Position numbers and translations under genes: made by a program. Below, one piece after another: positions 18,272 through 24,159 of a stretch of DNA of 64,000 bases (position 1 is the stretch's first letter; every line of letters starts with the position of its first letter). This DNA comes from Steroidobacteraceae bacterium. Its GTDB lineage: Bacteria > Pseudomonadota > Gammaproteobacteria > Steroidobacterales > Steroidobacteraceae. The notes under the pieces are model-generated. The model saw only the letters and a program-made list of their open reading frames with translations. It was not told where the DNA came from and ran no database searches. The DNA is taken from positions 1-64,000 of the forward strand of contig JANWJS010000020.1 of the NCBI GenBank assembly GCA_025451845.1. The letters are read 5' to 3'.

Positions 18272-18736
18272 ATGATGACTGGCGACCCAGACGCCGAACC
18301 TCGTGGCCAAAAGGCTCACCGGCTTTCCGCGGGAGTCGTAGTCGTCAGGCGAGGCGTACCGGGATGGCTCTTCCTGATGCTGCGCGCCTATCGGAACTGG
18401 GATTTCCCGAAAGGGATGGTAGAGCCGGGCGAAGCTCCATTGGTGGGCGCGCGTCGCGAGGTTCGCGAGGAGACGCTCATCGAGGATCTGGAGTTCCGCT
18501 GGGGCGAGGTCTATCTCGAGACGGGGCCTTACGGAAACCGCAAGATTGCCAGGTATTACGTGGCCGCGACAGCGACCGAGAGCGTCACTCTGCCCGTGAG
18601 CCCGGCGTTGGGACGGCCGGAACATGATGAGTGGCGCTGGGTCGATCGCGATAGGGCTCTCTCCCTGACCGTTGCGCGGCTGCAGCCGATTGTGCGCTGG
18701 GCTGCCGAGACCGTGGGCATCGGATGGCCCGGGTGA
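18272..18736 (+). CDS. Nudix hydrolase
   Basis: 154 residues. The Nudix box spans about 48-70: Gly48-x5-Glu54-x7-Arg62-Glu63-Val-Arg-Glu-Glu67, ending ETLI. The conserved Gly after the glutamates is Leu here, while all metal-binding Glu residues are kept, so activity is likely. The surroundings (WDFPKGMVEPGE) resemble the diadenosine polyphosphate / RppH-like branch. The next gene starts inside its 3' end (13-base overlap), suggesting coupling. Substrate unknown. Confidence 0.87.
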   Translation: MMTGDPDAEPRGQKAHRLSAGVVVVRRGVPGWLFLMLRAYRNWDFPKGMVEPGEAPLVGARREVREETLIEDLEFRWGEVYLETGPYGNRKIARYYVAATATESVTLPVSPALGRPEHDEWRWVDRDRALSLTVARLQPIVRWAAETVGIGWPG

Positions 18737-19692
18737 AACAGTTTGCTTGCCTGATGATTGCGGCGGTCCTGGGGGTGCTCGGCTGTACGCCTATTGGAGC
18801 GGCGGAATTGGGCGTTGGGTCGAAACGCCCAGCAGGGCGGCAGGTTGCCGAACCCCAATATACACGCATCGTAACCGACGACTTCAGACGCAACATAACC
18901 GTCCGCTATCCACCGCGGCGCATCGTAAGTCTGGCGCCGGCCGCGACCTCGATGCTGGTGGCCGCCGGCGCAAGCCGCCAACTCGTGGGGACCATCGAGT
19001 ACTCCGGACAGCCAGGCTCCGAAAAGGAGTTGGCGAAGATAGGGACCCCCGACGCCATTGACATGGAGCGCTTGATTGCCTTGAGACCGGATGTGGTGAT
19101 CGTCTGGCCAGACGGCAACAATCCGGCACAGATCGCCACGATCGAGCGTCTGGGTATCCCCGTCTACCGGCAGGAGGCCGTTACCCTGGATGGCATTGCG
19201 AGCTCCCTCCGCCGGCTGGGGCGGCTCACGGGGACGAGCGCTGCGGCTGATCTCGAGGCGAGTACTCTCGAGACGAAGCTTGCTGCCCTGCGGCAGGGGT
19301 ACGCAAACGAGACCCACACCCCTACCGTGCTTCTGGAAGTATGGGATCGGCCCCTCTACACGGTGGGCGGTAAAGAACTGATGAGCGATGCGCTGCGGGT
19401 GTGCGGGGCGAGGAACGTGTTTGCAGACCTCCCGGAGCGGGCGCCGGCAATTGGTATCGAGGCGGTGCTCGCCCGGGATCCGGACATGATCATTGCGGCG
19501 GCCCCGCCGGGACGGGGTGCCTCATGGCTGGCGCAATGGCAGCGCTTCCCTTCCCTGCGGGCGGTGCAAACAGGGCGGTTGCTGGCTTTCGAGGATCAGC
19601 GGCTCAGTGCGTTGGGACCCGGTGTCATCGACGCAACAGCGGTGATGTGCCGCAAAATCGGCGCGCTGACGGGGCGTACTAAGTTAAATTAG
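18724..19692 (+). CDS. BtuF/FepB-like periplasmic binding protein
   Basis: 322 residues with an N-terminal signal peptide that could carry a lipobox (VLGC, Cys near 21). It has a class III (TroA/BtuF) periplasmic-binding fold: RRIVSLAPAATSMLVAAGAS, GTIEYSG, ALRPDVVIVWPDG, VLLEVWDRPLYTVGG and PERAPAIGIEAVLARDPDMI, read as blocks. Members bind cobalamin or ferric chelates and feed an ABC importer; no permease or ATPase gene is nearby. It precedes a large TonB-dependent receptor on the same strand, consistent with a shared uptake route for a corrinoid or iron complex. Which ligand is open. Confidence 0.82.
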   Translation: MARVKQFACLMIAAVLGVLGCTPIGAAELGVGSKRPAGRQVAEPQYTRIVTDDFRRNITVRYPPRRIVSLAPAATSMLVAAGASRQLVGTIEYSGQPGSEKELAKIGTPDAIDMERLIALRPDVVIVWPDGNNPAQIATIERLGIPVYRQEAVTLDGIASSLRRLGRLTGTSAAADLEASTLETKLAALRQGYANETHTPTVLLEVWDRPLYTVGGKELMSDALRVCGARNVFADLPERAPAIGIEAVLARDPDMIIAAAPPGRGASWLAQWQRFPSLRAVQTGRLLAFEDQRLSALGPGVIDATAVMCRKIGALTGRTKLN

Positions 19693-20141
19693 GCCTTTAT
19701 AGCCTCGAGCTATAGCGTGGCAATGGAAGCCCAACGCTGCATGGACCCCTCCCTGGTGGCCCTTGCGGACCCGCAAAACCAACGCAGGAGACACCGCGCC
19801 GCCGCTCAATTTAGTTCGGGTTGCGCACGATTGTAACGCCCGGCAGCCGAGCCGGACGCGACGCTTCGGTCGAGTGTGTAAGGAATGATCCGAGCAATCC
19901 CGCCGGTTACCCACCCCCGTTTGTGCCTGCCGGCGCTCATGGGCCCATGCGCCGATATGAGGCCTCGAAGGTCGGGTGTGGGAATTTCGAATGGGCGCAG
20001 AGCAGTTGAAATGATCCGGGCCTGACCGGGAGTGGCTCAGGTATCGCCTCGCCGAGGGCTCTGGTAAAGTGGGGTTAGCTGGAGAGCTATCAATTAGAAT
20101 GACTTAGGGGCTGAGTTAACAGGGCGGCAGCGCGTCGGAAG
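19693..20141. other. 449-base gap before the TonB receptor
   Basis: No convincing gene. It holds a small inverted repeat TATAGC-CTCGA-GCTATA (19698-19714) just after the binding-protein gene and a stronger palindrome at 19931-19954 (CGGCG stem around CATGGGCCCATG). I looked for the cobalamin riboswitch B12 box and core on both strands and did not see them. No clear Fur box was found. Short open frames on both strands lack coding character. Confidence 0.5.
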
Positions 20142-23132
20142 ATGGACAGGATTAGATCGCTCGCTGTGCACACGCTGCTGTATTTCTCGTATGCAGCATC
20201 CGCCTCGATGTCGATGATCACGGACGCGAGGGCCCACGATCCCGTCGCGAACTTCAACCTGCCTTCCGAGCCCCTGCCGCAGGCACTCATCGATTTCTAT
20301 CACCAGTCCGGCATCGAGCCCGGCTTCGCCTCGACTCCGCAGATCGACAAGGCGAAGAGCAACCCGGTTACCGGCGAGATGGCAAGCTCGATGGCGCTCG
20401 CGCAGTTGCTGAAGGGCACCGGCTACACTTTCCGGCGCGACACCGAGAACTCGGTCGATGTCATACCCAACCAGGCGAATGGCGAGCAGAAGCCGACCGT
20501 TGCAGGCGCGCGACGCCCCGTGCCTCCCGTGGCTGCAGGATCGGCGGTGGGGCAAAACAAAGGCCGCCTCGAGCAGGTCAATGTCACGGGCAGCCTGATC
20601 CACGGCGTGCAGGATGCAGTAGCCCCCCTCATTTATTTGAAGCGGCAGCAGCTGCAGATGGCGAGCTTCCCGACGATTCAGGATGCCCTGTACTCGCTGC
20701 CGATGATGTCCCTGAACGGTCCTCGAGAGGACCTCGGCATCGATAACAACTATCAATACGGGGCCGGGCTCGACCTGCGCGGCCTGGGAGTCGGAGCCAC
20801 GCTGGTGCTGGTGAACGGCTATCGGCAACCGCTGTCGGGCCTGAACGGCGACTTCGTCGATGTCTCGACGATTCCCTGGAGCGCAGTGCAGCGTATCGAG
20901 GTGCTGCCGGACGGGGCTTCGGCTCTTTACGGATCGGATGCTGTCGCCGGGGTGGTGAACATCATCATGCGGGATAACTTCGATGGCGCCGAGACACAGG
21001 TGCGGTACGGATCGGCGATCTCGGGGCCGCGGGGACTCATGGCATCCCAGCTCCTTGGAACACATTGGAGCGGCGGCCATGCGATGTTGGCATATGAGTA
21101 CTCGGACACGACGCCGCTCGCTGCGGCCGATCGTCCCTATGCGGCGAATGCGAACAAGACCCCATACGGAGGAAACAATTACGACAGCTATGAGAGTGAT
21201 CCGGGCAACATCCTGAACCCTGCAACGCTGCAGCCGGAATACGGCGTTCCGGCAGGTCAGAACGGAACGGGGCTGAGCGCGGCGGTACTCGAACGGAGCA
21301 TCAACCTGCAGAATCAATTCGCGCAGTATCAGATCTTTCCGGAGGTGAGGGCGCATGAGCTATATACCGCGGCGGCCCAGGACATCAATGACAGGGTGCA
21401 GCTCTTCTTCAACGGACGTTTTGCGGGGCGCGATACGCTGAGAAGCGCCTTTCCGGCCGCGCAAGTCCTGACGGTGCCGCCGTCCAATCCGTTCTATGTG
21501 AACCCATACCGCGGCGCTCCATACGCGTTGGTGGCGTACAGCTTTTTACAGGATTTAGGACCGTCCATTTTTGCGGCCAGGACCCAAGTCTATGCGGGCA
21601 CGGCTGGTGCGAAGCTGCAATTCGGCAAAACCTGGCAGCTGACAGCGAGCGAATCCTACGGACGTCAGTCTTTGCGCAGCGATGAGTATAACCAGGTGAA
21701 TCAGACCGCTCTGACGGCCAGCCTGGCCGACCCGGATCCGGCCACCGCTTTCGACCCCTTCGGCGCCGGGTCGAACACGAATCCGCAGACGCTACAAGCC
21801 ATTGAGGCAGACTTTCCGCTGCACTCGGTGACGACCATCGAAGCCACTCGCGTGGCTGCTGACGGCTCGTTGTTCGCCATGCCGGCCGGTGATGCCAAGA
21901 TCGCGCTTGGCCTGGAGAGAAGGGAGGAGGCGCTGTCGCACGATGTCGTAGACACGTTGAGCGCTCTGCAGCACACGCTTTCCGAAAGCTACGACCGGCA
22001 CGTGACGGCGCTCTTCTCGCAGCTGGCGCTTCCAGTGATCGGTGATCCGGCAAATCCTCGAGCCACTCCCCGCCTGGAGCTGATCGCCTCGGGTCGTTAT
22101 GAGCGCTATAACGATTTCGGCCGGACCTTCAATCCAACCGTCCGGGTCAGATGGATTCCGACCGAGTCGTTGAAGCTGCGGGCAAGCTGGGGGCGCTCGT
22201 TCCGCGCGCCGAAGCTCGACGACCTTTATGACACCTCGAACGACCTCGCCGCATCGATCGTGCTTTCCGACCCGAAGTCGCCCACGGGGCGCTCGCTGGT
22301 CCTGGTCGAGGAGGGCTCCAATCCGGGCTTGAAGGAGGAGACGGCGAAAACATGGACGGCTGGGTTCGATCTCGCGCCGGTTTTGCTACCGGGCTCCACT
22401 TTCTCGTTCACCTATTACTCCATCGACTACCAGAACCGCATTGCCCAACCGGCTGCGGATGACCCTTTCGCCATTCTGGTGAACGAAAACGAGTGGGCGG
22501 CCGTGATCACCCGAAATCCATTTCCTGCGCAGGTCGCCGCCCTCTGCAACGGTCCCCACTACGTAGGCTTGGTGTCGGCATGCCTCGCGAGCTCACCGGC
22601 AGCGATCATCGACGGCAGATTAGCCAATCTGGCTGCGACCCGAACGACGGGGATGGACGTGCAGGCGGGCGATTCCTTCGGTGGCCCATGGGGACGCATC
22701 GACCTGGGAGTGACCGGCAACTACGTCTTCAAGTTCGACCAGGCCGTGACGCCCACTTCATCCGCAGTGGACATCGTGAATACCATTACCAATCCGCTGG
22801 CCCTGCGGCTGCGCGGAACGGTCGAATGGGACCGCGAGGGCCCCGCAATGCCGGGGCCGGGGTTCAGTTTGGCCGTGAACTACACGGGTGGATACAAGAA
22901 TCCCGGCAGTACGCTCATCGCCAATGTATCTCCCTGGACCACACTCGACGCCAGATTTGCCTTTCGAACCCGGCAGGGCGAGGGGTGGCTGAGCGGGTTG
23001 GAGTTATCCGTAAGCGCGGTGAATGTGCTCAATCACGCCCCGCCGTTTGTCGATGACCTTTCCGGCTATGACATCTACAACGTGCAAGCACTTGGGCGGG
23101 TCATCGCCGCCGACATCGACAAGCGCTGGTAG
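20142..23132 (+). CDS. TonB-dependent outer-membrane receptor with STN domain
   Basis: 996 residues. A signal peptide (1-31, cleavage after ARA) is followed by an STN domain (about 38-108, FNLPSEPLPQALIDFYHQSG, KGTGYTF). Then come a TonB-box-like EQVNV (144-148), a plug domain (about 160-270 with LDLRGLGVGATLVLVNGYR and DGASALYGSDAVAGVVNIIM, read as blocks) and a 22-strand barrel ending ...AADIDKRW with an aromatic last residue. The STN domain usually signals to a FecR-type anti-sigma factor, but no fecI/fecR pair is present here. Substrate unknown; the upstream binding protein suggests a corrinoid or iron chelate. It converges on the lasso-like peptide gene, and a hairpin follows its stop. 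Confidence 0.92.
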   Translation: MDRIRSLAVHTLLYFSYAASASMSMITDARAHDPVANFNLPSEPLPQALIDFYHQSGIEPGFASTPQIDKAKSNPVTGEMASSMALAQLLKGTGYTFRRDTENSVDVIPNQANGEQKPTVAGARRPVPPVAAGSAVGQNKGRLEQVNVTGSLIHGVQDAVAPLIYLKRQQLQMASFPTIQDALYSLPMMSLNGPREDLGIDNNYQYGAGLDLRGLGVGATLVLVNGYRQPLSGLNGDFVDVSTIPWSAVQRIEVLPDGASALYGSDAVAGVVNIIMRDNFDGAETQVRYGSAISGPRGLMASQLLGTHWSGGHAMLAYEYSDTTPLAAADRPYAANANKTPYGGNNYDSYESDPGNILNPATLQPEYGVPAGQNGTGLSAAVLERSINLQNQFAQYQIFPEVRAHELYTAAAQDINDRVQLFFNGRFAGRDTLRSAFPAAQVLTVPPSNPFYVNPYRGAPYALVAYSFLQDLGPSIFAARTQVYAGTAGAKLQFGKTWQLTASESYGRQSLRSDEYNQVNQTALTASLADPDPATAFDPFGAGSNTNPQTLQAIEADFPLHSVTTIEATRVAADGSLFAMPAGDAKIALGLERREEALSHDVVDTLSALQHTLSESYDRHVTALFSQLALPVIGDPANPRATPRLELIASGRYERYNDFGRTFNPTVRVRWIPTESLKLRASWGRSFRAPKLDDLYDTSNDLAASIVLSDPKSPTGRSLVLVEEGSNPGLKEETAKTWTAGFDLAPVLLPGSTFSFTYYSIDYQNRIAQPAADDPFAILVNENEWAAVITRNPFPAQVAALCNGPHYVGLVSACLASSPAAIIDGRLANLAATRTTGMDVQAGDSFGGPWGRIDLGVTGNYVFKFDQAVTPTSSAVDIVNTITNPLALRLRGTVEWDREGPAMPGPGFSLAVNYTGGYKNPGSTLIANVSPWTTLDARFAFRTRQGEGWLSGLELSVSAVNVLNHAPPFVDDLSGYDIYNVQALGRVIAADIDKRW

Positions 23133-23195: not shown

Positions 23196-23369
23196 TCAAT
23201 GAACCATAAAGCCCGCGCCGCTGTCCATCTTAAACCCAAGCCATCCTCCTTGCGTATCCGATACCTTGCCCAACTCCACGAGCGCGCTGTCCACCTCCAC
23301 CTTCTCCTCGCGAGCGGTATCGACTTTCTCTTCTGCTCTGACCAACAGATTGTCCGAACCGGTGTTCAT
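23196..23369 (-). CDS. Putative lasso-peptide (RiPP) precursor, 57 aa
   Basis: Small ORF of 57 residues. The leader (about residues 1-40) is acidic/basic and ends ALVELGKVSDTQ. The core is GGWLGFKMDSGAGFMVH. In proteobacterial lasso precursors (astexin, caulosegnin type) the leader ends in an LG-x-x-S-x-x-T-x pattern with Thr at -2, and the core begins with Gly and has Asp/Glu at 7-9. Here Thr is at -2, Gly at core 1 and Asp at core 9, allowing a nine-residue macrolactam ring with plug candidates Phe14, Met15 and His17. ATG 23369 has GGGAG six bases upstream. No maturation protease or cyclase gene lies nearby, so any partner must be elsewhere. The call rests on pattern alone. Confidence 0.6.
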   Translation of the reverse strand: MNTGSDNLLVRAEEKVDTAREEKVEVDSALVELGKVSDTQGGWLGFKMDSGAGFMVH

Positions 23370-23395
23370 GCTTTACTCCCGTCAGCACAACGAGC

Positions 23396-23426: not shown

Positions 23427-23456
23427 TTAGTAGCGGCAGTGCTGACTGAGGTTCAA
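23427..23456 (-). promoter_or_regulatory. Candidate sigma-70 promoter of the lasso-like gene
   Basis: On the minus strand TTGAAC (23456-23451) and TACTAA (23432-23427) are 18 bases apart, upstream of the 57-aa ORF and downstream of the ahpD terminator. The -10 match is modest. Confidence 0.35.
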
Positions 23457-23471
23457 TGCTACAACAAAACA

Positions 23472-23502
23472 GCCCCACGGGCGATAAGTTCGCCCGTGGG
23501 GC
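23472..23502 (-). terminator. Strong intrinsic terminator of ahpCD
   Basis: Perfect 13-bp stem (GCCCCACGGGCGA / TCGCCCGTGGGGC) with a five-base loop, followed on the minus strand by TGTTTTGTTGT. It ends ahpC-ahpD transcription and separates it from the lasso-like gene. Confidence 0.85.
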
Positions 23503-23536
23503 TGGCCGCCCGCCCGATGTAGGCTACGGCTCGCAG

Positions 23537-24100
23537 CTATGCCGCCTGTGCCTCGGTGACTGCCGCCCCCCAGCCGACGTTATCCAATACCCGAGCGACT
23601 GCATGTACTGTGGCCGCTATCCGGACGGCGCTTTGAACCGCTTCCCGGGAGAGGCCGTGTTCGCGAACGTGACGCTCATGAGAGGCCACGCACGTGCCGC
23701 AGCCGTTGATGGCGGAGACCGCAAGAGAGATGAGCTCGAAATCGACCTTGGCTATCCCGGGGTTACCGATGACGTTCATCCGTAAGCGCGCCGGCATACC
23801 GGCGTACTCGGGGTCCTCCACCAGGTGCAGGAACCGGTAATACACGTTGTTCATGCCCATGATGGCGGCCGCCGCCCGGGCGCCGGTCTGGTAGGCGGCA
23901 TCCAGATCGGCAGCCGCCAGCTGGCCGATGGCCGCTGCGAAGGCGGGGTTCCGGGACGCTTCCGCCGCTCCCAGGGCCACTGCCCAGATCTGCCGCTCGT
24001 TGAGACCCGGTGCCCCCGTCGGGGAGAGTACCGAGCCCAGGTTCAGCTTGAGGTCGCGTGCGTAGTCGGGCAGCGCGTCGCGAATCGTGTCCAAAGTCAT
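23537..24100 (-). CDS. ahpD: Alkyl hydroperoxide reductase AhpD (CMD family)
   Basis: 187 residues. The C-x2-C active site is at Cys134/Cys137 with the relay His141 (GCGTCVASHE), and Glu122 matches the relay Glu of mycobacterial AhpD. AhpD reduces AhpC via a lipoylated adaptor in mycobacteria; the same role is inferred here. ATG 24100 follows GGAGG with ten-base spacing. A TTG at 24109 lies too close to that site. The gene follows ahpC by 59 bases on the same strand and ends at a strong terminator. Confidence 0.93.
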   Translation of the reverse strand: MTLDTIRDALPDYARDLKLNLGSVLSPTGAPGLNERQIWAVALGAAEASRNPAFAAAIGQLAAADLDAAYQTGARAAAAIMGMNNVYYRFLHLVEDPEYAGMPARLRMNVIGNPGIAKVDFELISLAVSAINGCGTCVASHERHVREHGLSREAVQSAVRIAATVHAVARVLDNVGWGAAVTEAQAA

Positions 24101-24159
24101 CGTGGGCAATCCTCCGTTGGGTTAGAGCTCTGTCTGTGTGCCGGCCGTCGATGCCGCCC

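Follow-up and report, generated by a model that had tools for sequence, protein, structure and literature searches.

Can a lasso peptide be made when the gene for its precursor stands apart from the genes for its maturation? This question is raised by a 57-amino-acid open reading frame (ORF) in a stretch of 64,000 nucleotides from a Steroidobacteraceae bacterium (contig JANWJS010000020.1 of assembly GCA_025451845.1), hereafter the window. The ORF lies beside a gene for a TonB-dependent receptor and had been predicted to be an orphan lasso precursor, either a relic or one served by enzymes encoded elsewhere. In the lasso family, protease B removes the leader, and cyclase C, having activated the ring acid, forms the ring; lasso mining usually seeks the precursor adjoining B and C. 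No lasso protease (B2) or cyclase gene was found on the window's contig, in agreement with the original prediction, and the matches lie on other contigs. We consider it very probable that the ORF encodes a lasso precursor whose 17-residue peptide is matured in trans by B and C proteins encoded on another contig (C3), that the cluster has been split, and that the peptide is most likely the ligand of the receptor.

A conserved lasso precursor in the window

The precursor gene (A; positions 23196 to 23369, minus strand) encodes MNTGSDNLLVRAEEKVDTAREEKVEVDSALVELGKVSDTQGGWLGFKMDSGAGFMVH. Translation confirmed the predicted leader (residues 1-40, ending in VELGKVSDTQ), which is followed by the core GGWLGFKMDSGAGFMVH (residues 41-57). 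The core is predicted to form a Gly1-Asp9 ring with the tail SGAGFMVH; this ring assignment is unambiguous because Asp9 is the sole acid in the core, and the monoisotopic mass predicted for the core minus water is 1777.807 Da. A GGGAG, read from the sequence as the likely ribosome-binding site, stands 6 nt 5' of the ATG (23376 to 23380, minus strand), as predicted. The protein therefore has what is expected of a lasso precursor, namely Thr at position -2, a small residue at core position 1 and Asp or Glu at positions 7-9.

The lasso motif by itself is weak evidence and no proof. Its strict form (T.G.{7}[DE] with a short tail) occurs in 1 of the 243 window ORFs of 40-80 amino acids, namely this precursor, and a looser form in 6; at eleven other loci, true precursors included, 5 and 45 of 958 ORFs carry the strict and the looser form, respectively. 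The cheapness of the loose motif would favor the idea that the ORF is a different small protein, such as a regulator of the receptor, with a chance likeness to lasso precursors. We regard this as extremely improbable and reject it on conservation and synteny: in relatives the ORF sits within lasso clusters and tends to decay along with the cyclase, and the ring residues are among its invariant positions.

A protein search (E up to 1) yielded 41 proteins of 56-58 amino acids out of 42 candidates, that is, the query and 40 database relatives; the three homologues with a taxon-named source are all from Steroidobacteraceae. Thr -2, Gly 1 and Asp 9, the pattern on which the original prediction was built, are kept in 41 of 41 alignment rows, and the 13 invariant columns include Thr39 (-2), Gly41 (core 1), Gly45, Lys47, Asp49 (core 9), Gly51 and Gly53. 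Since the bare motif is too cheap, it is this conservation that establishes the ORF as real. In 14 of 19 pairs of relatives the last 28 codons show a lower pN/pS ratio than the remaining ones; in the other 5 it is higher, and 4 of these belong to the 10 pairs within the split clade described below. Searches of the precursor against Pfam and NCBIfam gave no match, and neither did its profile against PDB (E up to 10, by sequence) nor a search for plasmid or phage copies.

Two further points concern the precursor family. The leader reads L-x3-G-x4-T in the window protein and most rows; G011, G004 and G074 instead have G-x5-T, as do candidate precursors belonging to a second type of cluster in the genus. 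Prompted by PMC13381572, we suggest that this difference may keep two lasso systems apart. In the precursor of G011 (L062, 11761-11931) the acid is residue 8 of the core (GGFIGGPD), and ring size therefore probably differs between genera. L025, one of three loci, was discarded, its 16-residue match being due to chance.

Maturation enzymes on contig C3

A search of the window's genome (G000; 4.40 Mb, 58 contigs, 97% complete) found one lasso protease and one matching cyclase, both on C3, so that the enzymes are indeed encoded elsewhere and would process the precursor from there. The protease gene (C3, 20460-21176, minus strand, 238 amino acids) stands directly before the cyclase gene on the same strand (18624-20453, minus strand, 609 amino acids). 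The protease matches NCBIfam NF033537 with 80.5 bits against a cut-off of 33, and its Cys180, His212 and Asp224, shared by all 12 B proteins of the alignment, are presumably the catalytic triad, going by McjB. The cyclase is Asn-synthase-like (PF00733, 72.1 bits against a cut-off of 21), with an SGGLDSS loop visible in the sequence. Against PDB (by sequence, E up to 0.01) the cyclase gave no match and the B protein a chance match only. The pair is followed by genes for an extracytoplasmic function (FecI-like) sigma factor, a FecR protein, csrA and a GGDEF protein.

The genome thus holds one precursor, one B2 above cut-off and one cyclase of this family. A second Transglut_core3 match (21 bits, cut-off 26) contains a stop, and there are five further Asn-synthase matches, two of them strong (C9, C12). 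A second precursor was searched for in the genome and at the C3 B-C locus, and none was found.

A compact cluster in relatives, split in five genomes

In a family set of 150 genomes, drawn evenly and including G000, the precursor was found in 11 (A1 profile, E up to 0.01) and a B2 match in 41, of which 33 were above cut-off. Within the genus, the A2 profile, built partly from compact loci, finds a match in 28 of 58 genomes with E values up to 0.1, the matches at the end of the list being weak; the receptor is present with at least 52% identity in 30 of the 58, and a weaker receptor in four more. Ten genus genomes other than G000 carry the complete set B2-C-TonB-A-FecI-FecR on a single contig (L056, L057, L058, L060, L061, L063, L180-L183). 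In this compact order B2, C and the receptor share one strand, the precursor is convergent with the receptor, and FecI, FecR, csrA and GGDEF follow; csrA and GGDEF come next in 8 of the ten, where the contig continues, and sdaA also in 7. The same compact order, with more distant genes, occurs in other genera in G011 (L062) and G004 (L073).

In five genomes (G000, G163 and G193, the latter two being loci L023 and L024, G168 and G179) the receptor gene adjoins the precursor gene, away from B2-C. In the window the receptor gene (20142 to 23132, plus strand, 996 amino acids, plug and barrel above Pfam cut-off) ends 63 bp from the precursor and is convergent with it; its plug matches known TonB receptors in PDB by sequence. 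One border of the block is the gene for a periplasmic binding protein (Peripla_BP_2, here called HemV/btuF-like; 18724 to 19692, plus strand), the other an ahpD-like gene of the CMD family (23537 to 24109, minus strand). In the split genomes the binding-protein gene lies beyond the receptor (in G193 the contig ends there), and past the precursor comes the oxyR/ahpC/ahpD side. G000 and G179 have an intact ahpD and G163 a remnant, and in G193 the contig stops within the gene. No ahpD was found in G168; the next gene there is oxyR, located on a second contig that has this same precursor at its end. At the other locus B2-C-FecI-FecR stands before csrA in all five (GGDEF seen in four, sdaA in three), and in none of them does a receptor or precursor gene separate C from FecI.

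In trees of 18 cyclases and 18 receptors, rooted at the midpoint, the five split genomes form one clade (cyclase tree 98/99, receptor tree 100/100). They adjoin ten compact genus genomes, and the compact G145, G011 and G004 lie outside. On this basis the compact arrangement probably came first, and a single split is enough to explain the five; binning error seems an unlikely source of the split, since both trees unite them. The ahpC, ahpD, nudix and binding-protein genes form a group in the compact genomes G145 and G004, with no receptor match there, and the nudix and binding-protein genes are oriented oppositely with respect to the split genomes, so that a local inversion probably accompanied the move. 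The sole G145 precursor in the genus search is at its compact site, the precursor profile not having been run on the ahp stretches of G145 and G004. Synteny and trees thus replace the orphan of the original prediction with one half of a relocated cluster.

Several observations accompany these loci. In G168 the same precursor stands at the ends of two contigs (L175, L176), so the break in the assembly falls within the gene or close beside it. The B2 and C genes of G188 are of this type (86%) and lie where a contig ends; receptor and precursor were not found in this draft, which is 83% complete. Several genus members have, about 3.8 kb from the first cluster, a second, divergent B2-C pair (about 30% identical; L060 17026-19560, L061 16811-19330, L063 1688-4222, L069 6721-9258), adjoined by short candidate precursors with G-x5-T leaders. 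Five matches to the cyclase, with 32-41% identity, occur in the genus member G159 (7.9 Mb, 6% contamination).

Upstream of the window precursor, TGTTGTAG at 23444-23466 is followed by GTC at a constant distance in 5 of 5 split genomes, by eye, and the TGTTGTAG...GTC element is possibly a promoter; no promoter common to both loci was seen by eye. The terminator-like hairpin that the prediction placed after ahpD is also present (23461 to 23503, minus strand, 5' of the precursor); it is recognizable by eye in split-clade genomes and degenerate in G168.

Natural loss of the cyclase

The 30 genus genomes with the receptor were sorted by the state of their cyclase: open in 20, lost or decayed in 8, and unclassifiable in G155 and G165, the latter without a precursor match. 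The open cyclases are open as far as the contigs show (in G169 and G133 the gene is spread over two contigs, and in G175 it runs off the end of one), and B2 was seen in 19 of the 20, not in G187. Thr -2, Gly 1 and Asp 9 are kept in 20 of 20 genomes with an open cyclase versus 2 of 8 with a lost or decayed one (Fisher p 7e-5, uncorrected for kinship among these related, non-independent genomes and with categories set after the data were seen). In the eight (G111, G080, G139, G182, G173, G172, G174 and G170; the B2 frame is still open in G111) Asp9 is lost in G111 and G080, the precursor was not found in G174 and G170, and its frame is broken in G139 and G182, where sequencing errors in the drafts are possible.

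These decayed precursors bear on the idea that the window precursor is a relic copy left beside the receptor after processing had ended, as its distance from B and C might suggest. Broken precursors of the genus look different, with Asp9 lost or the frame broken, whereas Thr -2, Gly 1 and Asp 9 are kept in 5 of 5 split genomes as well as in every database row; moreover, no second precursor was found in G000 or at its B-C locus. Conservation and synteny lead us to reject the relic, which we consider extremely improbable.

The regulatory genes outlast the cyclase. In 8 of 8 cyclase-less genomes the reading frames of FecI and FecR are uninterrupted over roughly the stretch seen in intact genomes. 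Four of the eight (G111, G139, G182, G174) have an open receptor frame on a single contig; in three (G080, G172, G173) the receptor seems complete although a contig break runs through it, and in G170 it is truncated. Known lasso antibiotics exploit outer-membrane receptors, and the peptide could be matured in trans and yet be an antibacterial that enters competitors via such a TonB receptor, rather than a signal or carrier. In this regard, PMC9769762, which deals with microcin Y, mentions mutants of the Ton system. We find a weapon unlikely: the maker retains the receptor and has moved it with the peptide gene, the eight cyclase-less genomes keep FecI and FecR and up to seven of them a full receptor, which would be costly if it were an entry gate only, and no ABC exporter or immunity gene was found in the compact gene order, the flanks being scanned in part only. 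The joint move of receptor and precursor, together with the persistence of receptor and sigma pair beyond the cyclase, leads us to favor a ligand role.

A model for the split lasso system

From these findings we infer how the window peptide would be matured, exported, bound and used in signaling. The C3 protease would cut the precursor after T-Q and the C3 cyclase would close Gly1 onto Asp9. The ancestral cluster, with B-C-TonB, the precursor and FecI-FecR, would have been split in this lineage, receptor and precursor moving as one block to the oxyR/ahp and periplasmic-binding-protein genes and B, C, FecI and FecR staying behind. The mature peptide would leave the cell and is probably the ligand of the adjoining receptor, which would signal via its STN domain and FecR to FecI in the FecA-FecR-FecI fashion, so coupling both loci.

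Several results weigh against this model. G172 and G173 (the latter with a shorter tail) keep Thr -2, Gly 1 and Asp 9 despite lost or broken cyclases. The N-terminal STN match of the receptor is below the Pfam cut-off (24.6 vs 28.4), the specific FecI and FecR models were matched with scores below their cut-offs, and the cyclase falls below the NCBIfam lasso-cyclase cut-offs (53 of 525 and 68 of 300 bits). As for the leader-binding (RRE) domain of B, Pfam gave no match and the lasso PqqD model matches 2 of 12 members weakly (best E 0.0039). No exporter was identified. The ahpD remnant in G163 and its absence from the search in G168 mean that the block border differs among the five; both trees combine midpoint rooting with long outgroup branches (G011, G004), and G000 and most genomes compared are drafts.

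A wider picture, which we offer tentatively and would not call probable, is that the lasso peptide is a shared ligand, a signal or siderophore-like carrier, of a FecA-type receptor, that peptide and receptor travel as a unit and control the distant enzymes via FecR-FecI, and that non-producing relatives retain receptor and sigma pair so as to use the peptide of others. The stable split hides the precursor from mining beside B and C. It also reveals which partners travel together, the peptide with the receptor and the enzymes with the sigma pair, and together with the cyclase-less genomes that keep receptor and regulator it makes the role of receptor-linked lasso peptides testable.

Comparison with known lasso systems

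The isopeptidase-type clusters of astexin, sphingopyxin and benenodin share with the present system lasso A, B and C, a TonB receptor and a sigma/anti-sigma pair, as described in part of PMC9266682; here receptor and sigma pair are spread over two loci. The same part remarks on the siderophore-like layout of such clusters and leaves their function open, and its rubrinodin cluster has a TonB receptor and a FecI/FecR-like pair, as here. The receptor of the present system, with its weak STN match, and the FecR-FecI pair resemble ferric-citrate signaling. The present system differs in that the precursor is convergent with the receptor, that A and receptor are apart from B-C-FecI-FecR, and that the compact order has no isopeptidase: between B2 and FecR there is no room for one in the compact loci of the genus, and no S9 isopeptidase was found there. 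The genome of G000 has 24 S9 matches; tblastn with the longest frames of 20 of its own S9 loci matched only in L173, at lipase-like protein(s) about 6.5 kb from B2, and a Pfam scan of ten flank ORFs of four loci gave no S9, 4 of the 10 being without any match. The earlier label of astexin-type is therefore confined to the TonB and FecI/FecR surroundings.

Metanodin, a lasso peptide from a soil metagenome and the same order (Steroidobacterales), has its closest match in Steroidobacteraceae; it differs in having Asn at ring position 1 and an isopeptidase gene in its cluster (both from a section of PMC12670498). Citrulassin with its distant PAD enzyme is likewise a lasso peptide whose pathway requires a gene located elsewhere in its genome; there the distant gene encodes a tailoring enzyme, whereas in the present system it is the precursor that lies apart from the core enzymes (compared with an extract of PMC12971885). 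With limited search terms, no description of a lasso precursor separated from B and C was found in the portions of the open-access literature at hand. Set beside these systems, the chemistry is that of known lasso peptides, and what appears to be new is the stable split into precursor and receptor on the one side and enzymes and sigma pair on the other, with no isopeptidase in the gene order.
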